DNA from: Bacillota bacterium
GTDB taxonomy: Bacteria > Bacillota > Clostridia > Lachnospirales > Bianqueaceae
Assembly (NCBI GenBank): GCA_017441925.1
Contig: JAFRUE010000005.1
Coordinates: 1 to 64,000 of the forward strand
Direction: 5' to 3'
DNA: 64,000 bases
The stretch's first letter is position 1, and each line of letters opens with the position of its first letter. The translations under genes were made by a program, and so were the position numbers. Below the pieces are notes generated by a model. That model was not told the origin of the DNA. It searched no databases and saw only the letters and a list, made by a program, of their open reading frames with translations. Shown here in pieces: positions 1-20,554 of the stretch.

Positions 1-945
1 GAACTGGCAGAGAAGCAGAAAGACGGACTGCAGGCTTATTTCAAAGGAGGCACGGCGCTTTATAAGGCACTTAAAACCACAAATCGGTTTTCGGAGGACA
101 TTGACCTTTCCGTAGATACCCGTGGCTGCAGCCGCTCCCAAAATGCGAGGCGGTTGGAATTAGCCGCCAAAAAATACACTGTACTGGATCGCGATGTCTC
201 TGTAGGAAGGACGAACCGGTCTGAGGTGATCTCCATTTTCACCTATGAGCCGATCACGGCCTATGATGAAAATGATGCCTTGCAGCGTTTCGGAAAGCTG
301 AAGATCGAAGCCACATCCTTTACTATCAGTGAGCCGACAACAAGCCTGGAAATCTCACCCATGCTCTACGAGCTTGCCAACGAAAGCGAACAGAGTATCC
401 TGTGGGAGCAGTACGATGTTGCACCGTTTTCCATCATGACGATCACAACGGAGCGGATCTTCATCGACAAGCTCTTTGCAGCAGAGGCCTATGTCAGGCG
501 GTCTGCTGAACCACAGAGAGCTTTTGAGGCGGCAAAGCATATCTACGACCTAGCCGTCATGATCCGGCAGCCGAACATCCAAAGCCTTCTTGCGGATGAT
601 GAGCTGGTCAAAAGACTCCTGGATATCCGCATTGAAGAGGAAGCCGGTCGGCTCGATGGAATCCCCGGTGTTATGCCGAAAGAGTTCACCTTTTTTGCAG
701 CTGCTGCGTACGATGATGCAGTCAGAAACGCCTATGCAGTCATGCAGGCGCAATATGTCCTCCGCCCAGAGGACAGAATCAATTATGCCGATGCAATGGC
801 CGCTTTGGGCGAAATCCGCAATAGACTTCTGAACTGCAAAGCCTGGACCATGTATGAGCCAAGCGAAGAGCTCCAACGGCATATCCGGCAAAAAGAGTCT
901 GAACATCTCCATTCCGCGCAAAACCGGGATGACAGAGAAAGGTAA
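1..945 (+). CDS. Nucleotidyltransferase, AbiEii/AbiGii toxin family (5' end outside window)
   Basis: The reading frame is open from base 1, so the start lies outside the window. Near the left edge it reads KGGTALYKAL followed by SEDIDLS, which is the nucleotidyltransferase signature (GG-T/S plus D-x-D) of the AbiEii/AbiGii toxin family. These proteins add nucleotides to RNA, often tRNA, and act as toxins of type IV-like toxin-antitoxin or abortive-infection modules. The rest, about 250 residues, is helical and has no other motif I recognise. No antitoxin gene follows within 800 bp; the partner would have to be upstream, outside the window. It sits at the outer end of the left mobile element, a usual place for defence cargo. 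The family call is firm from the two motifs; activity is inferred. Confidence 0.8.
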   Translation, partial: ELAEKQKDGLQAYFKGGTALYKALKTTNRFSEDIDLSVDTRGCSRSQNARRLELAAKKYTVLDRDVSVGRTNRSEVISIFTYEPITAYDENDALQRFGKLKIEATSFTISEPTTSLEISPMLYELANESEQSILWEQYDVAPFSIMTITTERIFIDKLFAAEAYVRRSAEPQRAFEAAKHIYDLAVMIRQPNIQSLLADDELVKRLLDIRIEEEAGRLDGIPGVMPKEFTFFAAAAYDDAVRNAYAVMQAQYVLRPEDRINYADAMAALGEIRNRLLNCKAWTMYEPSEELQRHIRQKESEHLHSAQNRDDRER

Positions 946-1593: not shown

Positions 1594-1775
1594 GAAAGCC
1601 GCATACGTTTACAACTGAATACCCGTTACCGAAACAACTACGACCGCGCGATGACACGAGCGCAGCAACGCTGTGGTGAGAACCCAGGGCAGGCGAACAG
1701 AACGATATCGGAAGTACGGTGAATCAGAATAACGATAAACAATATAAATTGACATGAAAGGAGCTTTGATCATTG

Positions 1776-3116
1776 ATGAATGAAGAAAAACTGACACCAG
1801 AACAAGTGAGAGCGACTCTCGTCTGCAACAACAAAGGCCTTCCGACAAACAGTCTGGGTAACTGTACAACGGTTCTTAAACTCGACGAAAATCTGGCAGG
1901 AGCGATCAAATACAATAGTCTGACCGGAAGGATCGAAATCGTAAAGGATCTGGGCTGGGCCCGGGCGAGCTCCACTCTGACTGATACCGATTTGAAATAC
2001 TTTTACCTTTACTTTGAAAGAACGTATGGTCTGACCAATCAAAAGCATATCGTCAATGCTGTAGGCATCGTGGCAAATGATAATCAATATCATCCGATCC
2101 GGGATTATCTGAACAGCCTTCACTGGGATGGTCAGGAACGGATCCGCTATGCGCTGCATAAGTATCTGGGTGCGGATACTTCCGACTATACGTATGATTG
2201 CCTGAAGGTGTTTATGCTCGGGGCAATCGACAGAGTATTTCATCCGGGAGAGAAGTTTGATCTGATGCTGTGCCTGGTCGGAGGCCAAGGTGCAGGTAAA
2301 TCCACGTTCTTTCGTTTTCTGGCGGTGAAGGATGAATGGTTCTCAGATGATCTGAAACGACTCGATGATGAAAACGTTTACCGTAAGCTCGAAGGTCACT
2401 GGGTCATCGAGATGTCCGAGATGATTGCCACCGCGAATGCAAAGAGTATCGAGGAAATCAAATCCTTTCTAAGCCGGCAGAAGGAAACCTACAAAGTTCC
2501 CTATGAGACGTATGCGCAGGACAGATTGCGGCAATGCGTCTTCGCAGGAACGACCAACAAGCGTGATTTTCTACCTAAGGATAGATCCGGCAACCGACGC
2601 TTTCTGCCGATTATGGTTCACGCAGAGGAGGCAGAGGAACACATCCTGGACAACGAGGAATCCTCCCGAGCCTATATCGAACAGATGTGGGCGGAGGTCA
2701 TGGAGATTTACCGAACCGGCCGATATGTTCTGAAACTGCCGGAGAGATTTGAGGCAAACCTGAAGGACTATCAGAGCGACTTTATGCAGGAGGACACGCA
2801 AGCTGGTCAGATCTACGCCTGGCTGGAACAGACAACCGAAACTAAAGTCTGTTCAAAACAAATCTACCTGGAAGCACTGGGAAACACTTTCAAAGAGCCT
2901 GCTTCCTGGGAGACACGGAACATCTGCGAAATCGTAAACACCGGAATCGAAAACGGAGATATCGTAGGCTGGAGAGCCTTTAAGAACGCCAAACGTTTCA
3001 AAGCATACGGAAAACAGAAAGGCTGGGAACGTATTCCGAATATGGAAAAACATCTGGAGGGCGATGAGTCGGGTTTCATCCCGGTCAATGATGATGTCGA
3101 TAATCCGTTCGCCTGA
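1776..3116 (+). CDS. Virulence-associated E (VirE) family P-loop protein, putative element replication helicase
   Basis: 446 residues. A Walker A motif GGQGAGKST lies near residue 168, followed by WFSDDL, a Walker-B-like VIEMSEM near residue 210, and NKRDFLPKDRSGNRRF (the arginine-rich sensor part) near residue 260. This order is typical of the VirE family, which are SF3-like helicases found with primases on phage and mobile elements. There is no N-terminal primase domain here. AAAGGAG at 1757-1763 serves either TTG 1773 or ATG 1776; I chose ATG. It is followed by an iteron-like region and a mobC gene, so a role in replicating the excised element is likely (inference). The related right-hand element has lost this gene. 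Confidence 0.85.
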   Translation: MNEEKLTPEQVRATLVCNNKGLPTNSLGNCTTVLKLDENLAGAIKYNSLTGRIEIVKDLGWARASSTLTDTDLKYFYLYFERTYGLTNQKHIVNAVGIVANDNQYHPIRDYLNSLHWDGQERIRYALHKYLGADTSDYTYDCLKVFMLGAIDRVFHPGEKFDLMLCLVGGQGAGKSTFFRFLAVKDEWFSDDLKRLDDENVYRKLEGHWVIEMSEMIATANAKSIEEIKSFLSRQKETYKVPYETYAQDRLRQCVFAGTTNKRDFLPKDRSGNRRFLPIMVHAEEAEEHILDNEESSRAYIEQMWAEVMEIYRTGRYVLKLPERFEANLKDYQSDFMQEDTQAGQIYAWLEQTTETKVCSKQIYLEALGNTFKEPASWETRNICEIVNTGIENGDIVGWRAFKNAKRFKAYGKQKGWERIPNMEKHLEGDESGFIPVNDDVDNPFA

Positions 3117-3126
3117 AATGAATGCC

Positions 3127-3303
3127 GGTTGACAGGCGGTTGACATCCTGGTAGACAGGCAGCGCCCGCATAAACACACGACTTTTCGGCTCTTTACTCT
3201 TCTGTCTACTGTCAACCTAAGAGAAAAAGTAAAAAAGAGAAGAGAGAGAAGAATGGAGTACTGAACAAAGTCTTTGAGGCCGGTTGACATCAGTCGGTTG
3301 ACA
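3127..3303. repeat. Iteron-like GGTTGACA repeats, candidate origin
   Basis: GGTTGACA occurs at 3127-3134, 3138-3145, 3282-3289 and 3296-3303, with GGTAGACA at 3150-3157 and the inverted form TGTCAACC at 3210-3217. The array lies between the VirE gene and mobC and contains a purine-rich tract around 3220-3255. Repeats beside a replication protein suggest an origin of replication; beside mobC they could also mark oriT. The same arrangement recurs at 18328-18505. Confidence 0.6.
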
Positions 3304-3461
3304 AGATATAAGATCCTTTTGTCCTTTTCTCGGGTAGTGCCCTTTTAATCCAGACAGAAAAGGACCGGGTCTGCAGTATTTGAGAAAGAATCGTGGGCGT
3401 ACACAATGCCCGCACTTATCAGGGAATCCCCTGAAATCCTTAACAGGAAGGAGGCGAGACG

Positions 3462-3785
3462 ATGGGAGCATTAACAGCCCGTCCGCACGAGGTGCATCTG
3501 CGGCTCAGCGAGGAAGAGTACAGAGCCCTGGAAAAGAACAGAGCGAAGTGCAGACTTTCTCAGCAGACCTATCTGCGAAAGATGTGCTTGAACGAAAAGC
3601 CGAAAGAACAGCCGCCTGTAGATTTTTTCCGCGTGCTCAAGGAACTGCAGCATATCGGAATCAATCTGGACCAAATCGCGCTTGCAGCCACCAGGGACAG
3701 ATGGATCGACGCGGATCTTTACTGGGACAATGTAAAACAGCTTGAGGATCAGATGCATGATCTGTTTGAGCAGATCATACTGTAA
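3462..3785 (+). CDS. MobC-like relaxosome accessory protein
   Basis: 107 residues with a strong GGAAGGAGG ribosome site. The N-terminal part (HLRLSEEEYRALEKNRAKC then LSQQTYLRK) is a ribbon-helix-helix region of the MobC family. The later LKELQHIGINLDQIALAA matches the conserved G-x-NL-Q-i-A helix of that family. MobC proteins bind oriT and help the relaxase nick it. No relaxase gene follows; the next gene is an integrase. The first 60 residues are nearly identical to the protein at 18666-18986, after which the two diverge sharply, which points to a recombination break within the gene. Either a relaxase acts in trans, or the protein now serves in excision or copy control. Confidence 0.8.
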   Translation: MGALTARPHEVHLRLSEEEYRALEKNRAKCRLSQQTYLRKMCLNEKPKEQPPVDFFRVLKELQHIGINLDQIALAATRDRWIDADLYWDNVKQLEDQMHDLFEQIIL

Positions 3786-3820
3786 CAGAAACCAACTACA
3801 GAAAGGAGGCATCAGCCTGC

Positions 3821-5179
3821 ATGAAAAAAGAATCTGTACCTGTACGCCCGGCTGATGTCTCCACAGCCCGGTATTGCAAGAACAGAACTGTCCCCTTCTC
3901 CACGGATTTGTTATTTAAAACCGCCCTGGACTGTGGTATAATTACAGTCGATGATGTTATGAACTCCGCCAAGGAGGACATAATGAAAACCATTTTAGAT
4001 ACTGTACATAAAGCCGCGATCAAACGCTTGCCGGACGGCAGGTATTGCACCTACATTCCGGACGAGAGCAAGCCCGGCGGAAGGAGGCAGGTCCGAAAGA
4101 AATCCCGGACGGAGCTCTATCGTTTTCTGATCAGTTTCTATGGTCTGGCTGAAGCTGCCCGTCCGAAGAAAACGTACGAAGCGCTGTTTGTCGAATGGGT
4201 CGAATACAAGAAGAAATTCATTGGAGCGCCTAATTCCAAGAAGGGATTATCCGCATCCACGATCCGAAGGTATCAACGTGATTATGACAGTCAGATCCGC
4301 GGATCGGATCTCGCGAAAACATCTCTCGACAAGATAACGCCTGTCATGATCGAGAAGTTTTTCCTCACCGTAATCGAAGAGCACCATCTGACTGACCGCT
4401 CTGCCGGAAACATCTTCGGCTACCTGAATCAGTCCTTCGATTACGCGGTACGTTCCGAATACATCGACAGGAACCCCATGATAAGGGTAGACAGACAGCT
4501 GCTTCTGTCGCGGTGCAAACCGCCGGAGATCTCGACCGATGCGGATCATATCTTTACAAGATCACAGCTGGCTGATCTGAGGAGGGAGCTGCACCGTCAT
4601 GAAGCTGCTTTCCCGGGCTTTATGCCGGATTACGCGATCGAACTGGCCATGCTGACAGGGATGCGGATCGGCGAATTGGCCGCGCTGAAATGGAGCAGCA
4701 TCGATGATCTGTACATCCACATCGATTATTCGGAGCACAGGCTGGATTACGCAAACCGTCCCAGCGAGATCGTGATCGGCGAGCCCAAGAACCGCAAGCA
4801 TCGGAACATTCCGCTTACTGCGGAGATCCGGAAGCTTCTGGATCGGATCCGGGAAGCCGGAATCGATACGGAGGACGGATATCTCTTCACCGACAAGGAC
4901 GGTAACCGCTGTACTGCCCGTTCTATCGGCTGCGCAATGAACCGCAGAGCCAAAGCGATCGGGATCAGCCACGGATCGATCCATCGGATCCGCCGGACCG
5001 TTTCCTCGCTGCTGAATCAGACTCTGCCGCAGAAGGAAGTCGCGGAGCTGCTGGGACATTCCGAGAAGGTCAACGAAATGCACTACCACTTCTCTACCGC
5101 TGACCTGACAGAAAAACAGCGGGCCCTGAACGCGTTGTCGGAACAGCTGAACGGCCTAACGGTGATCAAGGCCGGATAA
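3821..5179 (+). CDS. Tyrosine recombinase/integrase of the left element
   Basis: 452 residues. The catalytic domain shows the expected residues: Arg in MLTGMRIGELAALKW, His-x-x-Arg in HGSIHRIRRTVSSLL, the second His in LLGHSEKVNEMHYHFS and the nucleophile Tyr in the same segment. An AP2/SAM-like N-terminal DNA-binding region precedes it (about residues 55-200). The start at 3821 follows GAAAGGAGG with 11-nt spacing and lets the GIITVDD segment align with GIITPDD of the second integrase, supporting this start over later ATGs. It ends 123 bp before a 22-bp duplicate of the tRNA-Ser 3' end, so tRNA-Ser is its likely target. Confidence 0.92.
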   Translation: MKKESVPVRPADVSTARYCKNRTVPFSTDLLFKTALDCGIITVDDVMNSAKEDIMKTILDTVHKAAIKRLPDGRYCTYIPDESKPGGRRQVRKKSRTELYRFLISFYGLAEAARPKKTYEALFVEWVEYKKKFIGAPNSKKGLSASTIRRYQRDYDSQIRGSDLAKTSLDKITPVMIEKFFLTVIEEHHLTDRSAGNIFGYLNQSFDYAVRSEYIDRNPMIRVDRQLLLSRCKPPEISTDADHIFTRSQLADLRRELHRHEAAFPGFMPDYAIELAMLTGMRIGELAALKWSSIDDLYIHIDYSEHRLDYANRPSEIVIGEPKNRKHRNIPLTAEIRKLLDRIREAGIDTEDGYLFTDKDGNRCTARSIGCAMNRRAKAIGISHGSIHRIRRTVSSLLNQTLPQKEVAELLGHSEKVNEMHYHFSTADLTEKQRALNALSEQLNGLTVIKAG

Positions 5180-5301: not shown

Positions 5302-5323
5302 AACGGAGAAGGAGGGATTTGGA
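5302..5323. repeat. att site: duplicate of tRNA-Ser 3' end
   Basis: These 22 bases are identical to 20427-20448, which cover the acceptor stem and part of the T-arm of the tRNA-Ser gene. Everything beyond differs. The site is the outer boundary of the right element and, by the same token, the integrase-proximal end of the left element. Confidence 0.85.
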
Positions 5324-8355: not shown

Positions 8356-9942
8356 TTAATGTCCTGAATAGTTATAGTCTAATGCCAGCCAAGCTTCCAT
8401 AGAAGAATCCTGAGCTGGGACAAGTTTCCCGCCTCTCTCAAGAATATACTTGTCACTGATCTCTTCCTCATCTGTTTGTGCTGGCACACGAATATCAAAC
8501 AGAAAATACTGTCCGTCTTCTGATATTTTCTCCAATGATATTCTGCCTGCACAGGCATATTCCCACAGACCCGAACCAGCAAAAATATCTTCGAATCTCC
8601 CTGTCTCAGGATTCCACTCCAGAAAGTATCCTTCAATCAGTCTTCTGTACTTTCCATCTTCCGTCTTGTTAAATCCTTGAGGCATAACCTTATAATCATC
8701 TGCCTCAACGGTAATCCATGGTCTGAATTTCAGGAAACAGTGTCCGTTCAGAATCAGCATCCGTACATGCGACACTTGGTCTACATCGTGATTGTAAGTC
8801 ACTTGTAAGACATAATCTCCATCCACTGCCAGCAGATAATCCACATCATAGTTTTCTCCATTATCTAACGTAAAAGTATCGATATACTCCAGATCCGGCA
8901 GCCTCTCCCATCCACCATCGGTCTTCTTGTATACTGAAGCAAATTCTCCGTATCCTTTTTCCTCATATACATTATCAAGAATATTCGTATAAGTACCCTC
9001 CAATCCGTCCGGGGTGTAAGTATCTTCGGCATTGACTCTAGGAACCCCTGTTTCCGAGAAAGGAATCTCCATTCCGTCAATCTGCGGAAGTATTATCAGG
9101 TCGGTCCAGTATTCCTTTGAATAAACGCTTAGCTGCACCCATGTATCATATTGTTCTGGCAATTCTTCATACGAACTGCCAAGTCTCCTACGCAGCCTGA
9201 GCGTCAGTTTTCCTTCTCCCAGATCCTGCGCTCCGAATCCAAGAATTTTTAGTCTCTTGCCTCCTCCTGCATCCTGTTCCCGGATCACACCACAGTCCCC
9301 ATAATTCTGCCGAATTGTGAAACATACATCTCCGCCTGCAGCAATTTCTTCTTCATCTGGACCGCTCATCCCTGTAATACAAAACACACCTGCATAGTAT
9401 AAAACAGCCCCAACAACATCTTCTCCTGTTACTTCGTTAAGACTATACAACGTACCTTCTGTAAGATTGCTATAGTACAGTTCTCGTGTGTCAAGGTCCC
9501 TAAAAACAAATTGTTTATTGTCCGCACTTTTATCCACCATAGTAAGCGAATGTTCTCTGGCAAACTCGAATAAACCACTCCTGGCAAAAATGTCCTTGAA
9601 TTCAAGGACATTTGGGTCCCACAGCAAATAGTACAGTACTGCTGAGGCTTTTGATTCCCCATCTTCCGACTGAATGGTACATCTCAGCCATTTCTCTTCT
9701 CCTATCGTAATGAGTATTGCGTCGGGTGTAGTAATGAGAGGGATTCCCCCTATACCGATTTTATACTGTAAAGCATATTGTGTTCCGTTCCATATAAAAA
9801 TCTGTTTTCTAGTATTATTGTCTTCCTGGTTGATAATCGGGGGATTTTCTGCTTCCGGATAACTACTGTCAGCATTTTCTCCCGAAGTACAGGAAGAGAA
9901 ACATATAATAACACAAAGGACCAAACACATGAATCTTTTCAT
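8356..9942 (-). CDS. Lipoprotein with an internal duplication
   Basis: About 528 residues. An N-terminal hydrophobic stretch ends in the lipobox CFSSC, so the protein should be anchored to the outer face of the membrane. Two segments resemble each other: YLLWDPNVLEFKDIFARSGL near residue 105 and YFLEWNPETGRFEDIFAGSG near residue 445. Both continue into an aromatic-rich F-F-D strand, so a roughly 100-residue module is used twice with a different middle. No catalytic motif is evident. The second of two ATGs (9942) has the better spacing to AAGGAG. It begins 38 bp after the large secreted protein and is presumably co-transcribed with it. I do not recognise the family. Confidence 0.85.
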   Translation of the reverse strand: MKRFMCLVLCVIICFSSCTSGENADSSYPEAENPPIINQEDNNTRKQIFIWNGTQYALQYKIGIGGIPLITTPDAILITIGEEKWLRCTIQSEDGESKASAVLYYLLWDPNVLEFKDIFARSGLFEFAREHSLTMVDKSADNKQFVFRDLDTRELYYSNLTEGTLYSLNEVTGEDVVGAVLYYAGVFCITGMSGPDEEEIAAGGDVCFTIRQNYGDCGVIREQDAGGGKRLKILGFGAQDLGEGKLTLRLRRRLGSSYEELPEQYDTWVQLSVYSKEYWTDLIILPQIDGMEIPFSETGVPRVNAEDTYTPDGLEGTYTNILDNVYEEKGYGEFASVYKKTDGGWERLPDLEYIDTFTLDNGENYDVDYLLAVDGDYVLQVTYNHDVDQVSHVRMLILNGHCFLKFRPWITVEADDYKVMPQGFNKTEDGKYRRLIEGYFLEWNPETGRFEDIFAGSGLWEYACAGRISLEKISEDGQYFLFDIRVPAQTDEEEISDKYILERGGKLVPAQDSSMEAWLALDYNYSGH

Positions 9943-9980
9943 CATGTATCTCCTTCCAATAATTTAGCATATGACTTTTG

Positions 9981-12710
9981 TTATAACTGCTCCCCTGTTT
10001 CCAAATCTACATAGACGATAGTAGAGTTTGTCACAATTCTATAACAGAGTTTACATTTTGTTTCATCAATAGGTTTATAAATGAGTTTAGTCCTTTCAGC
10101 TTCAACTTTTAGTCCCTGCTGTTCAACTTTCTTCAAGGCAGTTTCTAAAGAATTTTGGTTCACAAGAATTCTTTCTTCTCCTGGTGTAATCTCCTTCCAG
10201 TTGTTTATCGCCATATATATTCCATCTTTATCTACCGAAAACTTCATAAATGAATTATTAATAGGGATGTCATTGAAAGTACTGATAATACTATATTTTT
10301 CACCAACCTTAATGCTCGGCTCAAGAAGATTCATCTCATTCAGATTTAATGTATCCACAACAATATCAGACATTTCTACTCTTACATTTTCTAACTGTTC
10401 ATCTGAGAAGAACTGATATACTATTTGTTTCATCAATTCTTCTTGACTATTCATATCAGTCAAAGAATCTGTTGGATTTCGGTTCAAATCTGTCAGCCTT
10501 GAAAACTGCGATTCGAACTCTGGATCCACCCTAGTTTCTACGTAAAGCGGGAACTCTCCTTCAGGCAAATCTCCACTTTCATTCCGATTATTTAGGATAA
10601 TATAAGGATTTACCTCCTGTGAATTTCCCTCTTTAAATCTCAAAATAACATCATTATTTTTATTATGACTTATACTCGAAGAACCCGGGAATCCAGGCAT
10701 TTGATATCCTTGATACGTAGAATATACAAGGATTGCCCATGGCTGTGTATCAGCATCAGAACTTGAGTTTGCATATTCCCAACAATACTTGATGCTAAAG
10801 CCAGCTGCGGCTCTACACCACATCATAAAACATCTTGCTACCATGACATCAGATTCTCCTGAGTCTGTAGGCTCATGATATCCTAAAACCGCTTTCAAAT
10901 TGGAGGCTTTCATTATTCTTCCATAATAATACATATTATAATATGCATCCAACTGTGAGCAAGCAGCAAGAATTAGAGTTTCTACTGGTTTATTATTCCA
11001 AACACAATCGTTTTGCCAAGAACTATTACTAGAAACCCCAAGATGTGTAGCAACATCAAAGGCATTTGTGTATCCGTAGCTAAGCACAGGATGACCGCCA
11101 CTTTCTCCTCCATGTCCTGAAAAAACACAAACTGTTTTATCTCCCCCACTAATAAACGTGTTTTCTGTTACTGATAAATTATTTGATGTTTCTAATCCAT
11201 TATTGTTTGGATATGCCAAAGCTGACCACCCAGGATGAATAGCAGAATATCCCATTGCTGTCAATTCATCATAATATACTTTACAGTCATCAGCATCGTC
11301 ACACGCTCCAGCCATAACAACAGCTGTATAATTCCCATAAGATGCAGTATAATTAATAACTAATTTGGGTTGCAGCCCCGGTGTATTATCCGAAGAATAA
11401 AACGTTGACCATTGATTTGTATTATCCTCGTAATAATCCTTTATCATCACACCATAATTGGTATAAGTATTGTTGAACCAGCCTTTAACTATATCTGTAA
11501 CAATAACATCATACCATCTGTTCCCCAAATTAGATGAAGGTCCCGGAGAAGGGGTGCTTGAATATGAAGGTTGATTGTTCCACGTGATGGAACTTGGATT
11601 CCAAGAGGTAGTTACTCTATAGGAACGAAGTGTAGGAGTGCCCGAGTATCCTTCTCTATACAGTCTAATAGTTGCGCTATTGATAGCGGACCCGTTAATT
11701 GGATATGGATTGATATAGAAGCGTATATAACTTCTCCTTATGCCATAATCCGTGTCTTTTCCAGCTCTCAGGTATAGATTATCATTACCTATATTAAAAT
11801 TCGTTGTTGGATAAAAACTACAAACACATGTATCATAAATGAACTTATAATCTGTGATCTGGACACTCGGATCTACTACTACCGGAAAAGCTCTCTCCTC
11901 GTCATTGATCCATTCCTCGTCTATTGTTATGACAACCCTGTATTGGTTTTCTCCCAATGTTTTAACGGAACAACCTATATTCTGACTTATTGCTTTATTG
12001 CTGTCATAAGCATATAAGGATCCTATTGTCAGTACTTCCTTACCTTCTGCATTCAGTAATACAACCTCATTGTCATTCTCTGAAAACGTTAATCCCCCTT
12101 CTACCTGATAAATAAAAGCAAATTCTGTTTGCTCCGGCTTCTGCCATAATATCAGGTTTTCTTTTATCTCACTGGATCTGACTTCATACATATAATCAAC
12201 AAAAGGGTAGATATCAGAATATACTATACATGCTTCTGGATCATATAGTTCCTCCATAACCTCAGGTGCTTTGTATTCTCTATCTGTCTGGGAAGAATTG
12301 CCCTCAAATCCCATGAATATCTGATAATCATTCCAATGGAAATACACCGGAAATTCGCAATTCGACGTATCGTCTGCAAGGCGGATTTCCATATCGTTCG
12401 CTTCATTTCTGTATACATAGGCGTTCTCTCGAATTTTGGTCGGTTCTTCAATCAGCCGATTGGAAATCTCCTGATATTCATTATTCTGATCCAAATAATG
12501 AACTCGCGAGGCATATACCTCATAATCAACAGTACCATCGGAACGAAGAAAATGCTTACCATTCAGTTCTCGCAAAGAAGCAAGTTCAATAGGTTCATCA
12601 GATAACTCCGTTTCCTCTTTTGCCTTCAAAGAACCAAATGACGACCATTCCATAACCAAGATACTGAATACCAACAGTATCGTCATACTAATAGTTATTC
12701 TGCGTTTCAT
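9981..12710 (-). CDS. Large secreted protein: DNRLRE region plus caspase/gingipain-like domain
   Basis: 909 residues with a signal peptide (residues 1-30) and AAGGAGG start. Residues about 45-280 resemble the leader part of RHS/DNRLRE surface proteins (GKHFLRSDGTVDYEVY, VHYLDQNNEYQEI). Residues 280-460 match the DNRLRE domain (VVVDPSVQITDYKFIYDT, SSITWNNQPSYSSTP, DIVKGWFNNTYTNYGVMIKD). Residues 465-700 contain VCVFSGHGGESGG and, fifty residues later, ETLILAACSQLDA. That His-Gly followed by Ala-Cys pattern is the catalytic pair of clan CD peptidases (caspase, gingipain, CHAT), also seen in DUF6345-type proteins. The C-terminal 200 residues are unassigned. It heads an operon with the lipoprotein at 8356-9942 and has its own regulated promoter at 12857-12885. 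Proteolytic activity is inferred. Confidence 0.85.
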   Translation of the reverse strand: MKRRITISMTILLVFSILVMEWSSFGSLKAKEETELSDEPIELASLRELNGKHFLRSDGTVDYEVYASRVHYLDQNNEYQEISNRLIEEPTKIRENAYVYRNEANDMEIRLADDTSNCEFPVYFHWNDYQIFMGFEGNSSQTDREYKAPEVMEELYDPEACIVYSDIYPFVDYMYEVRSSEIKENLILWQKPEQTEFAFIYQVEGGLTFSENDNEVVLLNAEGKEVLTIGSLYAYDSNKAISQNIGCSVKTLGENQYRVVITIDEEWINDEERAFPVVVDPSVQITDYKFIYDTCVCSFYPTTNFNIGNDNLYLRAGKDTDYGIRRSYIRFYINPYPINGSAINSATIRLYREGYSGTPTLRSYRVTTSWNPSSITWNNQPSYSSTPSPGPSSNLGNRWYDVIVTDIVKGWFNNTYTNYGVMIKDYYEDNTNQWSTFYSSDNTPGLQPKLVINYTASYGNYTAVVMAGACDDADDCKVYYDELTAMGYSAIHPGWSALAYPNNNGLETSNNLSVTENTFISGGDKTVCVFSGHGGESGGHPVLSYGYTNAFDVATHLGVSSNSSWQNDCVWNNKPVETLILAACSQLDAYYNMYYYGRIMKASNLKAVLGYHEPTDSGESDVMVARCFMMWCRAAAGFSIKYCWEYANSSSDADTQPWAILVYSTYQGYQMPGFPGSSSISHNKNNDVILRFKEGNSQEVNPYIILNNRNESGDLPEGEFPLYVETRVDPEFESQFSRLTDLNRNPTDSLTDMNSQEELMKQIVYQFFSDEQLENVRVEMSDIVVDTLNLNEMNLLEPSIKVGEKYSIISTFNDIPINNSFMKFSVDKDGIYMAINNWKEITPGEERILVNQNSLETALKKVEQQGLKVEAERTKLIYKPIDETKCKLCYRIVTNSTIVYVDLETGEQL

Positions 12711-12761: not shown

Positions 12762-12776
12762 ACTATATTATATAGT
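12762..12776 (-). promoter_or_regulatory. Perfect 15-bp dyad ACTATAT-T-ATATAGT
   Basis: Lies 52 bp before the start of the large secreted protein. It contains the same CTATAT-N-ATATAG core found between the -35 and -10 boxes of the promoters at 12857 and 17246. It could be a second operator or overlap a weak second promoter (a -35 of only 4/6 match lies upstream). Confidence 0.55.
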
Positions 12777-12856: not shown

Positions 12857-12885
12857 AGTCTATATCATGTAGATCGTTATGTCAA
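12857..12885 (-). promoter_or_regulatory. Promoter A with embedded operator dyad
   Basis: On the minus strand TTGACA (12880-12885), 17-nt spacer, TAGACT (12857-12862). The dyad CTACAT-G-ATATAG (12860-12872) begins 7 nt after the -35 box and runs into the -10 box, exactly as in promoters at 15554-15582 and 17246-17274. It should drive the operon 12710-8356. Confidence 0.7.
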
Positions 12886-13036: not shown

Positions 13037-13660
13037 TCATACATTCTTCCACATTATCTCCAGCCGAATCGTATAATCCTTTTCTGCCGTTCCACGGCTG
13101 AGCCTCGCAGATAGCATGTAATCCATGTTTGCAGGCACATTCGCCAAACCTGCTGTCGGCAGATTCCAGTATTCCAGGATGGAACCGGACCTTTCGAGCT
13201 TGGGCTTTGGATCCTGCGCATCCAGATAGCGATTGCTGATATCTGGATACGTCGCAGGCTTCCCCCATTTTCTTCGAAAAGAATTGATCAGATCATCATA
13301 CTCTGAGAGCGCTTCATCCAGATCCGCGATCTCTGCTGTATAAACCAATCCGTAAAAAACATCTGAATACCGTTCAAAGCATAACTCCACATCAAAAGAA
13401 TAATCCCCGATATACTCCTGATGCGGCAGCTTTAAGGTATCCTGATGTGTTTCCGTCACATCCGCAACCGTCAAGCCAAGTTTAGCAAGAACTTCTTCCT
13501 TTTGATCAAAATACATAGGAGAATATATCTCCAGTCTGCGTTCCAGGGTATACTGTTTTCCGATATTTGCCTTCCCCAAACAGCCTGTCATGAGACACAA
13601 CATCAGAAGCATTGCGGCCACCACGCACCGTCGTATCATGATCATCCGCAATTGTCTCAT
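13037..13660 (-). CDS. Lipoprotein made of the BlaR1-type sensor domain (copy 1)
   Basis: 207 residues, signal peptide with lipobox LMTGC near residue 27. The body (FDQKEEVLAKLGLTVADV, LKLPHQEYIGDYSFDVELCF, FYGLVYTAEIADLDEAL, PATYPDISNRYLDA) is clearly related to the C-terminal domain of the M56 protein upstream and to the lipoprotein at 15707-16321. Its start overlaps the stop of that M56 gene (ATGA), so the two are translationally coupled. Known families: none that I recognise. Inference: an extracytoplasmic sensing or immunity-type partner that competes with, or presents a ligand to, the membrane sensor. Confidence 0.88.
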   Translation of the reverse strand: MRQLRMIMIRRCVVAAMLLMLCLMTGCLGKANIGKQYTLERRLEIYSPMYFDQKEEVLAKLGLTVADVTETHQDTLKLPHQEYIGDYSFDVELCFERYSDVFYGLVYTAEIADLDEALSEYDDLINSFRRKWGKPATYPDISNRYLDAQDPKPKLERSGSILEYWNLPTAGLANVPANMDYMLSARLSRGTAEKDYTIRLEIMWKNV

Positions 13661-15144
13661 CCGTTCTGCCCCCTGTTCTCTGTTGTTATGTACAGTTGAA
13701 TCGTATAGTTTTCATACTGTTCACTGTATCGAATGCTTGCCCTCAGGATAATTCCAGCCCCATTCTGTTTCTTAAGATCTGTCCCTCCCAGGCTCCACTC
13801 TTCCGACAACATTCTTAACGAAGACGATTTGATAGTGTTTTGAGGATTCGGATTTGTGATATATGAATTGCTAAACGCCGTATTTGCCGTAGGATCTCCG
13901 TATCGCTCTATCAGTCTCCTGATCAGCGCGTCATACTCCGCAAAGGCTTCACCGGCGTCCGGCATCACTGCACTATAGCTGAATCCGCTGAGCGCGTCAT
14001 CATCATTAAACCTCAGATTCACCACATAGGGCTGATCCGCTGCGTATTCCTGGTAGGGCAGCCGGACTGTTCTCAAAGGAGATTCGACCACCTCATCCTG
14101 CGTCAGTCCCAGCTTCTTAAGCACGTCCTCTTTCTGCCCGGACAGCATCGCTGCATACTGTCCGGAGGACTTTCCCACATCGTGCCTAACAGGACTTGTC
14201 AGAAAGCAAATCGCGAGCAGCAGGCAGGCCATCATCGCCGCCGGAACAGCCCAAGCAGCAGGTCTCCGGTGCCGCAGCACGTTGCCGACCCGTTCCTTCA
14301 CGCTGATTTCACCAAAAGCAAGCATATGTCCATAGGGCCTGCCTCTGTGCACCCCACAGTCGAGCAAGGCTTTGGAATAGGCCTTTTTATCGGCAAAATC
14401 CATGCCATGGATAACCCTTTCATCACAGGCAAGCTCCATATCCCTCTGGAACAGTATAAAGCTCACCCACACCAGCGGATTGAACCAATGGATCGTCCGG
14501 ATCAGATATGCAAGCATCTTCCAGACCGGGTCCCCTCTGCGGATATGCACCACTTCGTGGGCGATCACATAAGCCCTGTCCGGTTCCACGAGATCCGAAG
14601 GCAGGTAGATATACGGCCGAAACATTCCCCAGATAAAGGGCGAGCTTACGGTGTCGCTCTCCAGCACCCTCTCTCCTGCCGGGATCGCCTCCCGCAGGCC
14701 TTGCTTCATCCTCCGGCTCACGATCCCCATATACAGGAGAGTCATCAGGATTCCCGCGATCCAGACGCACCCCGCGATCGAGACTCCGTCCCTGAAAGCA
14801 TATCCGGAAGCAGCCCTTTGCGTGGGAACAGTTCTGTCGACAAGGGCAATACCGCTATCAAGCCGCAGAAAGGCCGGATCATTAAAGATCACCGGATCCT
14901 CATTGTAGATCGTCTCGATCGGGAAGGTCTCCGCGCTCGGGATCAGACTGATATCCGACCTGACAGCCACCGGCAGGATCAGGCGAATTCCCACGATCGC
15001 CCACAGCAAGAGACGTGTCCACTTCGGAACACATTTCATACAGAACCGGACCGCCAGAACCGCGAGGATCAGCCAGCTTGCCGCGATGCTCGCGTTAACC
15101 GCATGCAGGAATATCCTTCCCAGCATGCCCGCAAAGTCATTCAT
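13657..15144 (-). CDS. BlaR1/MecR1-type M56 metalloprotease sensor with a non-PBP sensor domain
   Basis: 495 residues. The first 330 hold four or so membrane spans and the zinc motif VIAHEVVHIRRGDP near residue 200, with the distal ELACDERVI Glu/Asp segment near residue 235: the M56 protease of BlaR1/MecR1. After the last span (LLLAICFLTSP) comes an extracellular domain of about 160 residues that is not a penicillin-binding domain but resembles the lipoproteins at 13037 and 15707 (SGQKEDVLKKLGLTQDEV, RLPYQEYAAD). In the classical system ligand binding outside triggers the inner protease, which leads to loss of the BlaI repressor. Start overlaps the stop of the blaI-type gene. The inducing ligand is unlikely to be a beta-lactam. 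Confidence 0.9.
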   Translation of the reverse strand: MNDFAGMLGRIFLHAVNASIAASWLILAVLAVRFCMKCVPKWTRLLLWAIVGIRLILPVAVRSDISLIPSAETFPIETIYNEDPVIFNDPAFLRLDSGIALVDRTVPTQRAASGYAFRDGVSIAGCVWIAGILMTLLYMGIVSRRMKQGLREAIPAGERVLESDTVSSPFIWGMFRPYIYLPSDLVEPDRAYVIAHEVVHIRRGDPVWKMLAYLIRTIHWFNPLVWVSFILFQRDMELACDERVIHGMDFADKKAYSKALLDCGVHRGRPYGHMLAFGEISVKERVGNVLRHRRPAAWAVPAAMMACLLLAICFLTSPVRHDVGKSSGQYAAMLSGQKEDVLKKLGLTQDEVVESPLRTVRLPYQEYAADQPYVVNLRFNDDDALSGFSYSAVMPDAGEAFAEYDALIRRLIERYGDPTANTAFSNSYITNPNPQNTIKSSSLRMLSEEWSLGGTDLKKQNGAGIILRASIRYSEQYENYTIQLYITTENRGQNG

Positions 15145-15506
15145 TTTCCTTCTTCAGCGTTGTCGATCATCCGCCGGATTTCCTCCGCCTCCTTGGTTGT
15201 GAGCTTCCTGCCGTTTGTAAAGGCGGCAATGAAGCCCGGAAGCGATCCCGCGAAAGAACTCTCAACATAATTTCTGCTCTGCAGCGAGAAGAATTCGTCC
15301 TTCGTCACGAGAGCCGATACCGTCCCCTTATTGTTGACAAAGATCTCCTTATCACACAGGCGCTTGATAACCGTATGTGTCGTCGTACGCGCCCAGCCAA
15401 AGGTCTCCGCCGCGATCCGCACCAGCTCCGATGAAGTGATTGGCTCCCTTTCCCATACGATATCGGCAAATTTGCTCTCCATTACACCCATCTTTGTATC
15501 GATCAT
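15141..15506 (-). CDS. BlaI/MecI/CopY family repressor
   Basis: 121 residues with the winged-helix of the family (MGVMESKFADIVWEREPITS, WARTTTHTVIKRLCDKEI) followed by a short dimerisation tail (FFSLQSRN, LTTKEAEEIRRMID). Members bind dyads over promoters and are removed by the partner M56 protease. First gene of a three-gene overlapping operon (repressor, sensor, lipoprotein). A 28-bp palindrome covers its -10 box, so autorepression is expected. The same spacing of a related dyad in two other promoters nearby suggests it controls those operons too. Confidence 0.93.
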   Translation of the reverse strand: MIDTKMGVMESKFADIVWEREPITSSELVRIAAETFGWARTTTHTVIKRLCDKEIFVNNKGTVSALVTKDEFFSLQSRNYVESSFAGSLPGFIAAFTNGRKLTTKEAEEIRRMIDNAEEGK

Positions 15507-15542
15507 GATTTGTCATACCTCCCAAAGAGAAACATTAAAGGC

Positions 15543-15582
15543 CCTATAATTGTATACTACAATATATAGGCACGATTGTCAA
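15543..15582 (-). promoter_or_regulatory. Promoter and operator of the blaI-type operon
   Basis: On the minus strand TTGACA (15577-15582), 17-nt spacer, TAGTAT (15554-15559). A 28-bp near-perfect palindrome spans 15543-15570 with a TTGTA-TAC-TACAA core, over the -10 box. Its right half, CTATAT-A-TTGTAG, starts 7 nt after the -35 box, the same place as the dyads in the other two regulon promoters. Confidence 0.8.
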
Positions 15583-15629
15583 GCCTCTATTGTGATTCTG
15601 CTGCTATATTCTCTATTTGAATTGCGATA

Positions 15630-15670
15630 ATGGACCTGTGCACCATAATCTTTTTAGTGTACAGGTCCAT
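15630..15670 (-). terminator. Long hairpin between convergent-end operons
   Basis: ATGGACCTGTGCAC pairs with GTGTACAGGTCCAT (one mismatch) around a 13-nt loop. There is no clear U-tract on either side, so it is a probable end of the 17094-15707 transcript or an RNA-stabilising structure rather than a classical terminator. Confidence 0.5.
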
Positions 15671-15706
15671 ATTATTTATCTTGTGTGATCTATACAGTTT
15701 GACGTA

Positions 15707-16321
15707 TTAATTGCGCTTTGCTGTTACATCAAAAGCAAGTAAAATTATATAACTGTTATCTTGCTTTTCATGATAAATCCCCGCCCTTAGTTCATAATGC
15801 AGACCCGACGGAATCTTCCATTCGGTCAGTATTGGCAATTCCCAAGTCTCAACAAGAGAATTAGTCACGCTCATCTTATCTTTTACATTTTCCGCATCAA
15901 GATAACGATTATCCAATCCGGGATATGTTGAAGGTTCTCCATATGTTTCCTTAAAACAGGAAATTGCTGCATCAAACTGTTTGAACGCCAGGTCTATATC
16001 CGCAGTATTGGCCCTGTAATGAAATCCATAAAATTCATCAGTGTCCTTGATAAAACAGAGATCCACATCATACGAATAATCGGCTATCACCTCTTGATCC
16101 GGAAGTGTATACGCATTGACTCCATATTCTTGAAGATCATCAAGTGATAGCTTCAATTTCTGCAAAACTGTATTCTTCTGCTCAAAGAGCATCGCTGAAT
16201 ATAACGGAAAAGCTTCATTAATATCTCGTTTTCCTAAAGAGTGAACCTGTTTCGTACATCCGGAAAGCAAGCTTACTACCATGCACAAGAATATAATAAA
16301 TCCGAGTTTTATAGATTTCAT
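15707..16321 (-). CDS. Lipoprotein made of the BlaR1-type sensor domain (copy 2)
   Basis: 204 residues, lipobox LLSGC near residue 22, good ribosome site GGAGAG. It aligns along its length with the lipoprotein at 13037-13660 and with the outer domain of the M56 sensor: EQKNTVLQKLKLSLDDL, LPDQEVIADYSYDVDLCF, FYGFHYRANTADID, PSTYPGLDNRYLDAENV. It is closer to the other lipoprotein than to the sensor. It lies 20 bp after the exported protein at 16342-17094 in a separate operon with its own dyad promoter. Function unknown; membership in the signalling circuit is inferred from the shared domain. Confidence 0.88.
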   Translation of the reverse strand: MKSIKLGFIIFLCMVVSLLSGCTKQVHSLGKRDINEAFPLYSAMLFEQKNTVLQKLKLSLDDLQEYGVNAYTLPDQEVIADYSYDVDLCFIKDTDEFYGFHYRANTADIDLAFKQFDAAISCFKETYGEPSTYPGLDNRYLDAENVKDKMSVTNSLVETWELPILTEWKIPSGLHYELRAGIYHEKQDNSYIILLAFDVTAKRN

Positions 16322-16341: not shown

Positions 16342-17094
16342 TCACAGCATTACAGTATAGGATGTTGTACTTCCATTAACTGTTGCTGTAAAAGTTATCC
16401 CTTGTCCAACAAAGGGTGATCCTGATCCTGTATACAGACATCGACTTGAATTATAAGGATTCGATGTATTGTACATAGTACCTGCAACAGGATTATACCT
16501 CGTAACATAAATATTATGAACTGTCTCCGAAAGATTCAGGTCAACCAATCCAGGATATGTATAAGGAAATCCGTCACAAAAATATAGTACCTGAATATAA
16601 CTCACAGTACAAGTCTGATACTTTGTATAATGGAAATATGCTCCGGTTGGCTGGTAGAAAGATGAACCAGGAGTATTATAAACCGCAACAGCATGTATTA
16701 CATATCTGCCATCCCACGATAACGGCGGGAAATCTGCTGATCCTCCTGCTTTCATCCCAGTTGGGACTTTCCTCAAATCTGCAGTGCAAATTGATGGTGC
16801 ATTTCCTTCACTATCTATCATTAATACCACTTCTGTTGTTTCCACGCCGTCATTATTATTTACAATAACGATCGCTTGGCCATTATCAACGTCACTCTCA
16901 GTCTCCTGTTTTACATCTGTAATACGGATTACTGAACTGTCATTTATTACAACACCATTCTTTTCAAGAAAAGCCAATGCATCTTCACTTAATTCTTTGC
17001 CTGATACATAAGAATCCTCTGAACCAGCCTGTACAGAAAAAGCAGTATTGAATATAAACAATACGCCCATAAACAACGCAACAAGTTTTTTCAT
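16342..17094 (-). CDS. Secreted 250-residue protein of unknown function
   Basis: Signal peptide of about 23 residues ending AFSVQAG, ribosome site GGGAGG. Residues 30-110 are acidic (SEDALAFLEKNGVVINDSSV, DVDNGQAIVIVNNNDGVET). The second half is beta-rich and aromatic (LSWDGRYVIHAVAVYNTPG, YPGLVDLNLSETVHNIYV). It has two Cys in the second half and one in the first. No cleavage, anchor or catalytic motif is seen, so it is probably released or held by its partner lipoprotein. First gene of an operon with the lipoprotein at 15707; promoter with operator dyad at 17246-17274. An 11-bp direct repeat (17137-17147 and 17160-17170) lies in its leader. Confidence 0.8.
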   Translation of the reverse strand: MKKLVALFMGVLFIFNTAFSVQAGSEDSYVSGKELSEDALAFLEKNGVVINDSSVIRITDVKQETESDVDNGQAIVIVNNNDGVETTEVVLMIDSEGNAPSICTADLRKVPTGMKAGGSADFPPLSWDGRYVIHAVAVYNTPGSSFYQPTGAYFHYTKYQTCTVSYIQVLYFCDGFPYTYPGLVDLNLSETVHNIYVTRYNPVAGTMYNTSNPYNSSRCLYTGSGSPFVGQGITFTATVNGSTTSYTVML

Positions 17095-17245: not shown

Positions 17246-17274
17246 ATTCTATATCATATAGTCTATTCTGTCAA
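17246..17274 (-). promoter_or_regulatory. Promoter B with embedded operator dyad
   Basis: On the minus strand TTGACA (17269-17274), 17-nt spacer, TAGAAT (17246-17251). The perfect dyad CTATAT-G-ATATAG (17249-17261) begins 7 nt after the -35 box. About 20 further bases downstream also match promoter A (ATAGA-ACTAA). It should drive 17094-15707 with a 150-nt leader. Confidence 0.75.
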
Positions 17275-18665: not shown

Positions 18666-18986
18666 ATGGGAGCGTTAACAGCCCGTCCGCACGAAGTCCA
18701 TCTACGGCTCAGCGAGGAAGAGTACAGAGTCCTGGAAAGAAACAGAGCGAAATGCAGGCTTTCTCAGCAGACTTATCTGAGAAAGATGTGTCTGAACGAA
18801 AAGCCGAAAGAACATCCGCCTGTAGAGTTCTTTCAGCTGCTGAACATTCTGGATAAGATCAAGGATGAACTGTACAGGATAGCTGTAATTGCCGAAAAGA
18901 TTGGCCAGATAGACCAGGCCATGTATTGGCAGAACATAAAAAAGTTGGACAATCAGATAAGTGATCTTTTCAGGCAGTTTTACTAA
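18666..18986 (+). CDS. MobC-like relaxosome accessory protein, second copy
   Basis: 106 residues with AAAGGAGGTGAG. Residues 1-60 differ from the copy at 3462-3785 at only about six positions; residues 61-106 are quite different (LNILDKIKDELYRIAVIAEK), though the helix with a conserved I-A-x-x-A pattern persists. The ribbon-helix-helix DNA-binding half is thus conserved while the half that contacts the partner has been replaced. Again no relaxase is present. The integrase gene starts 68 bp later. Confidence 0.8.
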   Translation: MGALTARPHEVHLRLSEEEYRVLERNRAKCRLSQQTYLRKMCLNEKPKEHPPVEFFQLLNILDKIKDELYRIAVIAEKIGQIDQAMYWQNIKKLDNQISDLFRQFY

Positions 18987-19053
18987 AGAAATAAAAAAAA
19001 TAACCAATCGGTTATACAGGATTCCAAATTATTACTCAAAAGAAGGAGGTGAG

Positions 19054-20349
19054 ATGATGATCGATGTGATGGCACTGGCAAAACAGAATAATCCTGATTT
19101 AATAGTGTCAATGTTGGAAAAAAATGGTATAATAACTCCTGACGATGCCTGTGCCATCATCCATATGACACATAAGCAAAAAGTAATGGAAAGACATAAC
19201 CACAGAATTACACAGGGAGGTGGGAAGGACAAGCGCTGGTTCACGAGAATCGATACACCTGAGACGAAGAATAAACTCCTGGCTGCTTCTTCAGAAGAAT
19301 CGTTGTACGAAAAGCTCTATGATTTCTATTTTGAGTCTGAGATCCGTTTTCAGAGTATATCACTGCTCGATCTGTATCCGGAATGGCTGCGGTACAAATA
19401 TGAGACCAGCAACCGTCCCAACAATGTACGTCGGATCGATACGGATTTCAAAAAGTACTTTCTGGATGAAGCTGTCTCGCAGGAGATCCTGACAAAACCG
19501 TTAGCGGAGATCTCTGCCTACGATCTGAAGTTCTGGGCAGCCCGCCTGGTCAAGAAATACGGAATGACCAAAAAGCAGTTCGGCAACGTGATCATTCCAC
19601 TCCGACAGGGAATCGATATGCTGGTCGACCAGGGACTGTTTCCATCGAATCCTACACGGACCGTACGGTTTGACCAGAGCATCTTCCGGCAGACAGGTCC
19701 GAAGAAACTCTCTGACACGCAGGTTTTCTATCCGGATGAAACGGAACAGATCCTGAAATGTGCTTTGGAGAAAGCCCGCAAGACAAAAGATGAGTCCTTT
19801 ATCTCTATCATCATCTGTGCCTATACCGGAGTGCGTCCCGGAGAATGTGCAGGATTATCCTTCGATGACTTTGACCGAAAGACAAATCGGGTTCTGATCC
19901 ATCGTTCTCTGGCTGCGAAGCAGGAGCTTCTTCCGGACGGCACCTGGTCTGCCCGCACGTATGAGATTCAGGAGTATCTGAAGAAGAACGCAAAACCACG
20001 TATTATCACCGTGCCCGACATCTGTTTTGACATGGTTGACGAGATCCGGAGCATACTGAAGGATAAGGGTATTGAACGAAAGTACCTGTTCGATATTGAA
20101 ACTCCGAACAACATCGAGATGAAGCTCTACCGGATCTGTGATCATCTGCAGATCCCGCGAAGATCTCCAAACAAGCTTCGTATGACCTATGTCTCGACGC
20201 TGCTCAATCACAACTTTGATCTCGATTTTGTCAGACAGCAGGCTGGCCATAGTACTTTGCAGACAACTCTGAACCACTACACCTATTCCACTACCCGACA
20301 GGAAACACTGGTTCAACAGCTCAACGCTTCCGTAGGAAAAGGGTTGTAA
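19054..20349 (+). CDS. Tyrosine recombinase/integrase of the right element
   Basis: 431 residues; start at ATG 19054 behind AAGAAGGAGGTGAG (a second ATG follows at once). Catalytic residues: Arg in CAYTGVRPGECAGLSFDD, Arg in SPNKLRMTYVSTLLN (Asn where most have the first His), His in VRQQAGHSTLQTT and Tyr in LNHYTYS. The N-terminal GIITPDD segment aligns with the left integrase, but most of the protein is divergent, so the two elements carry different recombinases for one target. The stop lies 78 bp before the tRNA-Ser att site. Confidence 0.93.
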   Translation: MMIDVMALAKQNNPDLIVSMLEKNGIITPDDACAIIHMTHKQKVMERHNHRITQGGGKDKRWFTRIDTPETKNKLLAASSEESLYEKLYDFYFESEIRFQSISLLDLYPEWLRYKYETSNRPNNVRRIDTDFKKYFLDEAVSQEILTKPLAEISAYDLKFWAARLVKKYGMTKKQFGNVIIPLRQGIDMLVDQGLFPSNPTRTVRFDQSIFRQTGPKKLSDTQVFYPDETEQILKCALEKARKTKDESFISIIICAYTGVRPGECAGLSFDDFDRKTNRVLIHRSLAAKQELLPDGTWSARTYEIQEYLKKNAKPRIITVPDICFDMVDEIRSILKDKGIERKYLFDIETPNNIEMKLYRICDHLQIPRRSPNKLRMTYVSTLLNHNFDLDFVRQQAGHSTLQTTLNHYTYSTTRQETLVQQLNASVGKGL

Positions 20350-20426: not shown

Positions 20427-20448
20427 AACGGAGAAGGAGGGATTTGGA
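20427..20448. repeat. att site within tRNA-Ser
   Basis: The 22 bases shared with 5302-5323. They include the last 19 bases of the tRNA, so integration rebuilds a complete gene. Confidence 0.85.
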
Positions 20449-20516
20449 CCCTCGCGCCGGTTCCCCGGCCTACGCCCTTAGCAGGGGCGCCTCTTCGGCC
20501 ACTTGAGTACTTCTCC
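20430..20516 (-). tRNA. tRNA-Ser(GCU)
   Basis: 87 nt read on the minus strand: acceptor GGAGAAG/CTTCTCC, D-arm CTC/GAG, anticodon loop CTGCTAA (anticodon GCT), a long variable arm typical of tRNA-Ser, T-arm GAGGG/CCCTC. No encoded CCA. It is the integration target of both elements and remains intact. Confidence 0.95.
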
Positions 20517-20554
20517 ATGGCTTACGGCGCTAGCTGTCAAGAACTAGCTTCTAT

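Follow-up and report, generated by a model that had tools for sequence, protein, structure and literature searches.

A BlaR1-like sensor whose extracellular domain recurs in two lipoproteins of a putative BlaI regulon

The 64,000-nucleotide stretch of contig JAFRUE010000005.1 analysed here (the window, at its full length) encodes a BlaI/MecI-type repressor and a BlaR1-like membrane metallopeptidase of the M56 family. The C-terminal extracellular domain of the latter, which we call domain X, recurs in two lipoproteins encoded nearby, lipA and lipB. We read this locus as a BlaI/M56 switch fitted with a new sensor domain, whose companion lipoproteins may bind the ligand of the sensor as a sink, for protection or as negative feedback, and we give this reading an even chance of being right. 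Homology, agreement in predicted fold, operon structure, a shared promoter element and the boundaries of an integrative element can be read directly from the sequence; that domain X binds a ligand, and that sensor and lipoproteins bind the same one, is what we infer.

The original prediction, made from the letters of this DNA, had noticed conserved blocks common to the end of the M56 protein and two lipoproteins, and alignments bear this out over the last ~170 residues. Residues 303-490 of the M56 protein match lipA at 31% identity over 197 aa (E 3e-24), residues 320-484 match lipB at 36% over 167 aa (E 3e-23), and lipA and lipB match each other at 35% over 195 aa (E 4e-46), all as two-sequence E-values. 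Leave-one-out profiles recover the three window copies among 2261 open reading frames (ORFs) at E 2.5e-18, 1.3e-22 and 2.5e-22, and for these three no non-member scores better than E 0.14. Both lipoprotein translations carry a signal peptide with a lipobox cysteine, and an ORF check confirmed the coordinates first proposed for all three genes (Table 1).

AlphaFold models built from the three window copies alone agree with a single fold for sensor and lipoprotein domain, and differing folds, which would have spoken against a shared domain, were not seen. The main elements follow the same order in the lipA model (predicted local distance difference test, pLDDT, 74; predicted TM-score, pTM, 0.72) and in that of the M56 ectodomain (pLDDT 81.6, pTM 0.75): two helices, three long strands, two helices and three strands. 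The lipA model has in addition a short strand (43-46) and a short N-terminal helix (7-10). Among solved structures, the domain-X model comes nearest to the C-terminal region of TagH (9a4o, Z 8.1; 5bnd, Z 7.0), and YjgB/DUF4309 (4ygt) follows at Z 6.5 with a Foldseek probability of 0.96; these alignments span 99-123 residues, with Foldseek E-values no better than 4e-3. Further neighbours include domains like those of DcrB, Mog1 and immunity proteins, and Z scores in this range may reflect a common arrangement alone. The best structural neighbours, YjgB of B. subtilis (4ygt) and the C-terminal domain of TagH (5bnd), are Firmicutes proteins with DUF4309 assigned to the former, whereas domain X matches no Pfam model by sequence. 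Among the Foldseek and VIA-align matches listed there is no penicillin-binding fold, and no confident match of any kind.

The remainder of the M56 protein has a BlaR1-type layout. Peptidase_M56 (PF05569) is its sole Pfam domain (E 6.8e-49, residues 15-287), and includes intact catalytic motifs, HEVVH (196-200) and ELACD (237-241). Four hydrophobic segments (about 18-36, 43-61, 123-141 and 297-315) are laid out such that the C-terminal domain should lie outside, as in Staphylococcus aureus BlaR1 (PMC9834060). Pfam finds no transpeptidase or beta-lactamase domain in this protein, and the NCBIfam model blaR1_generic matches only the core, at 75.9 bits against a cut-off of 400, so the view that this sensor lacks a penicillin-binding domain is upheld. 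A role in beta-lactam resistance was considered for the locus and ruled out, since Pfam and NCBIfam find no beta-lactamase or penicillin-binding protein domain. A PADLOC scan of seven locus proteins for anti-phage defence matched 0 families.

Domain X itself matches no model in Pfam or NCBIfam, a PDB sequence search with the family profile gave nothing below E 0.2, and lipA has no relatives among the viral contigs searched. By sequence, then, it matches no known beta-lactam- or peptide-binding module, and the outcome that would have gone against the original prediction was not seen, although by fold a distant known module is possible. Because no such module is matched, the signal sensed may fairly be taken to be something other than a beta-lactam. 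BlaR1/BlaI-type systems are known, and the sensor domain is new within them. M56/BlaI systems are abundant in Clostridia, yet the literature that we found on their signals concerns beta-lactams.

The genes blaI, M56 and lipA form one operon in this order, the blaI stop overlapping the M56 start by 4 bp. lipB is the second gene, after that of the secreted 250-aa protein P0005, in an operon upstream of blaI. As first described, one lipoprotein is coupled to the sensor and the other belongs to a neighbouring operon; the ATGA overlap and the place of lipB behind P0005 refine this picture. A third operon encodes P0006 and P0007, and all three promoters have TTGACA, exactly 7 nt and then CTAYATNNTRTAG in common. 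In the P0005-lipB and P0006-P0007 promoters, the resemblance extends over a 75-nt stretch of 71% identity that is the top direct repeat of the region. The dyad occurs at four sites in the window, all in these promoter regions, versus 0.06 expected from shuffling, and TTGACA-N7-CTAYATNNTRTAG has exact matches in the 2.7-Mb genome only at these three promoters. Allowing up to two mismatches adds two genome sites, one of which is in the P0006 promoter region. We consider this near absence from the rest of the genome informative. The canonical operators TACA-N2/3-TGTA were also tried and set aside, having one window match each, which is the chance level. BlaI repressors of Clostridium thermocellum bind GTCTAT/GACTAT half-sites, regulate their own synthesis and control few promoters (PMC8457756), and GTCTATTGGAGTAGAC is present in the promoter of blaI at another M56 locus, the second in the genome studied here. 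We infer a single BlaI regulon comprising blaI-M56-lipA, P0005-lipB and P0006-P0007, with all three operons under BlaI control. Operon structure and promoter element together tie both lipoproteins to the sensor, in keeping with the early proposal.

In the working that we propose, the extracellular alpha/beta domain X would stand in place of the penicillin-sensing domain of BlaR1. An outside ligand would bind domain X of the M56 protein, whose cytoplasmic zinc peptidase would then cleave the BlaI-type repressor, and the three neighbouring promoters with the operator-like dyad would open together. Two of the three operons would each yield one domain-X lipoprotein, and the membrane surface of induced cells would fill with copies of the sensor's binding domain. 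These lipoproteins would most likely bind the ligand of the sensor, acting as a sink, as protection or in negative feedback, and P0005, P0006 and P0007 would be the remainder of the response. Soluble forms of the lipoprotein copies could be used as bait for the ligand.

Table 1. Positions in the window of the sensor locus, its promoters, the cargo genes and the integrative element
Feature	Position	Strand	Basis or remark
M56 (BlaR1-like) membrane metallopeptidase	13657-15144	-	PF05569; motifs; hydrophobic segments
Parts of the M56 protein (residues)	core 15-287; last transmembrane segment about 297-315; ectodomain (domain X) about 320-490		
DNA for the M56 ectodomain (domain X)	13660-14196	-	family profile reaches 13678-14196
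lipA, lipobox LMTGC and domain X	13037-13660	-	start overlaps M56 stop by 4 bp (ATGA)
lipB, lipobox LLSGC and domain X	15707-16321	-	translation; alignment to M56 and lipA
BlaI/MecI-type repressor	15141-15506	-	Pfam Penicillinase_R (PF03965), E 5.5e-20
blaI promoter, TTGACA-N7-CTATATATTGTAG (putative operator)	15557-15582	-	
P0005-lipB promoter, TTGACA-N7-CTATATGATATAG	17249-17274	-	in 75-nt repeat D1
P0006-P0007 promoter, TTGACA-N7-CTACATGATATAG	12860-12885	-	in 75-nt repeat D1
Second dyad in P0006-P0007 promoter region	12763-12775		
P0005, secreted 250-aa protein	16342-17094	-	20 bp upstream of lipB
P0006, exported 909-aa protein, DNRLRE/CBM96 domain (288-453)	9981-12710	-	
P0007, 529-aa lipoprotein	8356-9945	-	one operon with P0006
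Tyrosine integrase	18961-20349	+	Pfam PF00589, E 8.7e-16
NikA-like mobilization protein	18666-18986	+	Pfam PF21983, E 5e-10
Left att repeat, AACGGAGAAGGAGGGATTTGGA	5302-5323	+	
Right att repeat	20427-20448	+	3' end of tRNA-Ser(gct)
tRNA-Ser(gct)	20428-20517	-	

The parallel with BlaR1-BlaI and MecR1-MecI is close: an M56 gluzincin core with HEXXH and EXXXD, four transmembrane segments and a C-terminal ectodomain, a BlaI-type repressor adjacent in the same operon, and an operator-like dyad in the blaI promoter. However, the ectodomain in the window is an unnamed alpha/beta domain rather than a transpeptidase or class D sensor, and the response genes include lipoproteins with the sensor's own domain, with no beta-lactamase in the locus. 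The closest precedents for the function proposed here are BlaR1, where sensor domain and class D beta-lactamases are relatives (PMC9834060), and RsiV, a lysozyme receptor whose raised production also binds and inhibits lysozyme (PMC5014341). In SigV-RsiV, as we suppose here, the extracellular domain of the transducer binds a ligand that its raised production neutralises, and sensor and response in the window probably recognise the same ligand. The likeness extends to a putative anti-sigma protein of the extracytoplasmic function (ECF) type with domain X in genome G001, described below, but the transducer in the window is M56/BlaI and domain X is not DUF4163/DUF3298 by Pfam. The PbpP-RsiP-SigP system likewise has a separate exported protein with a ligand-binding fold encoded beside the transducer (PMC8092216), which in that system is an anti-sigma factor.

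Domain X is rare: it was found in 5 of 392 genomes of the order, with a few weak matches at the level of the class, and a search of GTDB contigs with domain-X patterns found none. Two class matches (G440, G468) are cytoplasmic-type proteins that we take as chance, and three more (G704, G467, G401) are distant lipoprotein-like candidates only. Genome G001, of the same genus as the window, has six copies. Two are ectodomains of M56 proteins and two belong to lipoproteins, a fifth is in an ORF that comes after an M56 gene, and the sixth makes up the extracellular portion of a membrane protein of 854 aa. This last protein, encoded after an ECF sigma gene, is recovered at E 4.7e-10 by a profile from which it was left out, and we regard it as a putative anti-sigma factor. 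The same ectodomain would therefore serve two unrelated transmembrane switches. In a tree of domain X, a split with support 97/98 sets the G001 copies apart from all others, the inner forks are mostly unresolved, and the topology suits repeated copying within lineages.

Other M56 proteins also have exported copies of their ectodomains. M56 matches at E 1e-20 or better are present in 77 of 117 genomes of the order. Our first sample comprised 83 M56 ectodomains of the order, scored for a non-M56 homologue nearby on the same strand at E 1e-4 or better. Seven have such an exported homologue, compared with 12 of 6972 cross-locus pairs. With the G001 locus L032 added there are 8 loci, divided as 3/7 in the window's genus and 5/76 elsewhere. 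One of the three within the genus (L022:5711-11148, contig C5) is a second BlaI/M56 locus of the genome that contains the window; its ectodomain is of a different, unrelated family and recurs in two lipoproteins encoded beside it. In another (L061:4230-8046), a classical BlaR1 with a transpeptidase sensor lies beside a lipoprotein that fuses metallo-beta-lactamase and transpeptidase domains. L091 and L110 are weaker cases, in which the partner carries the common Cu_amine_oxidN1 domain. Two side observations concern M56 loci. L022 is preceded by a small secreted protein, in a layout like that of the window locus. In L029:523-2091 (G004) and L034:2-1207 (G014), a sortase domain forms the M56 ectodomain (in L029, Pfam Sortase at E 9.4e-25); its catalytic TLxTC cysteine, judged by eye, is replaced (TLITP), which suggests a dead sortase as sensor.

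Several findings weigh against the reading of the lipoproteins as ligand-binding parts of the response. A second, named sample was drawn by applying M56 patterns to GTDB contigs, giving 80 loci of which 78 were scored for ectodomain paralogues; only 1 of the 78 has one, which is not above the cross-locus control, and domain X is in none of the 80. The operator pattern was drawn from the three promoters that it describes, and the site counts given above are descriptive. Other members of the family encode P0005 and P0006 relatives with no M56, BlaI or domain X nearby, and the cargo link is therefore not obligate. A DNRLRE protein does lie beside a domain-X lipoprotein in G001, but the relatives without domain X rule out that the cargo always travels with it.

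Frequency claims for exported ectodomain copies should rest on both samples together. Outside the genus, 6 of 154 M56 loci have an adjacent exported copy of the ectodomain. The idea that most M56 loci have ectodomain paralogues is ruled out by the 1/78 in the named sample. Exported copies of a sensor's own ectodomain, unrelated between loci, do recur, and on sequence comparison the pattern is real but uncommon. Once named, this pattern can be searched for across genomes one by one.

The strongest rival to a sink, protection or feedback role is that the lipoproteins are co-receptors, capturing the ligand first and then presenting it to, or dimerising with, the M56 ectodomain, and hence required for signalling; we consider this unlikely, if a serious contender. 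The translational coupling of lipA to M56 through the ATGA overlap would fit such a partnership, as would the common fold of the lipA and M56-ectodomain models. Sigma-P needs PbpP, encoded beside sigP-rsiP, in order to sense beta-lactams (PMC8092216), and BlaR1 is a dimer (PMC9834060). However, lipB belongs to another operon, together with the gene of a secreted protein and under a promoter class common to response genes, and the domain-X M56 proteins of G112 and G016 have no neighbouring domain-X lipoprotein.

Somewhat less probable still is an immunity-like arrangement, in which the target of domain X would be an exported protein, such as the P0006 C-terminal half or the counterpart made by a rival, with the lipoproteins protecting the producer and the M56 copy sensing exposure. 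P0006 has a DNRLRE domain (NCBIfam NF033679, E 1.5e-34; Pfam CBM96, E 4.2e-20), a head of a kind also present in the Streptococcus suis WapA toxin (PMC12704120). Its relative in G001 is 35% identical over 462 aa and shares the N-terminal ~460 aa only; its gene lies in the sigma locus next to that of a domain-X lipoprotein, and the anti-sigma-like protein of this locus has domain X as well, which repeats the pairing of a DNRLRE protein with domain X. Domain X is also weakly similar in structure to the immunity proteins RhsI1 (Z 6.1) and Tsi3 (Z 4.6), although Z scores under 8 may reflect a common arrangement only. Moreover, searches of Pfam, NCBIfam and the PDB recognise no toxin domain in P0006, whose C-terminal half has no family assignment in Pfam or NCBIfam, and relatives of P0006 occur without domain X.

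A by-product of duplication is a third, improbable, explanation: M56 tails would often be copied, being lipoprotein-like, and the copies would be spare parts or donors for swapping sensor specificity, with no direct part in signalling. In G001 (contig C37, L032:6248-8382), an M56 gene is followed after 23 bp by an ORF of 233 aa. The first 256 bp of this ORF match the M56 tail, last transmembrane segment included, at 95% identity, and the remainder leads into a diverged domain X; the G001 assembly is a draft, in which misassembly of this tail copy is possible. The last transmembrane segments of several M56 proteins end lipobox-like (ITGC, VVGC, ALGC), such that a copied tail is already nearly a lipoprotein, and domain-X copies cluster by genome in the tree. 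However, the signal peptides of lipA and lipB are ordinary, their reading frames are intact, their invariant residues are conserved and their places in the operons are usual, and identities of 31-36% indicate an old divergence. Separately, the C37 ORF resembles an orphan sensor cassette, and the sensor domain of S. aureus BlaR1 is released by signal peptidase (PMC9834060). A broader proposal, which we hold tentatively and think unlikely to be correct as a whole, is that domain X is an exchangeable extracellular recognition cassette of M56/BlaI and ECF/anti-sigma switches and of their lipoprotein products. Tail copying, with recombination through the identical M56 tail, would then be a general way to diversify sensing and neutralising, spread here by an integrative element.

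Finally, another repressor or ordinary sigma-70 activity might run the three promoters and leave the sensor unrelated to the neighbouring operons, given that the motif overlaps ordinary -35/-10 spacing, but this is very improbable in view of the element in the blaI promoter itself, the autoregulation of BlaI proteins (PMC8457756) and the near absence of the element elsewhere in the genome.

P0005 has no Pfam family match, and relatives that are 33% identical occur in two genomes of the family. P0006 has SGHGG and LAACS motifs in its C-terminal half that are reminiscent of clan CD cysteine peptidases, for which Pfam and the PDB gave no support. A relative of P0007 lies directly upstream of a third BlaI/M56 pair in the window's own genome (L023:3152-5638).

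The regulon lies between direct repeats. The 3' end of tRNA-Ser(gct) recurs exactly, over 22 bp, at 5302-5323, and the interval encloses an integrase adjoining the tRNA, a NikA-like protein and the regulon. Flanked by direct repeats and with its integrase next to the 3' end of a tRNA gene, the interval has the features of a tRNA-integrating element, and GC content is 0.39-0.46 across 8-20 kb versus about 0.55 outside. We read it as an integrative element of ~15.1 kb, possibly mobilisable, whose main cargo would be the regulon. An Rfam scan of positions 1-24000 gave no match. Just left of the left att repeat, positions 1773-5179 encode a VapE-like protein and a second tyrosine integrase, the mark of a neighbouring, tandem element.

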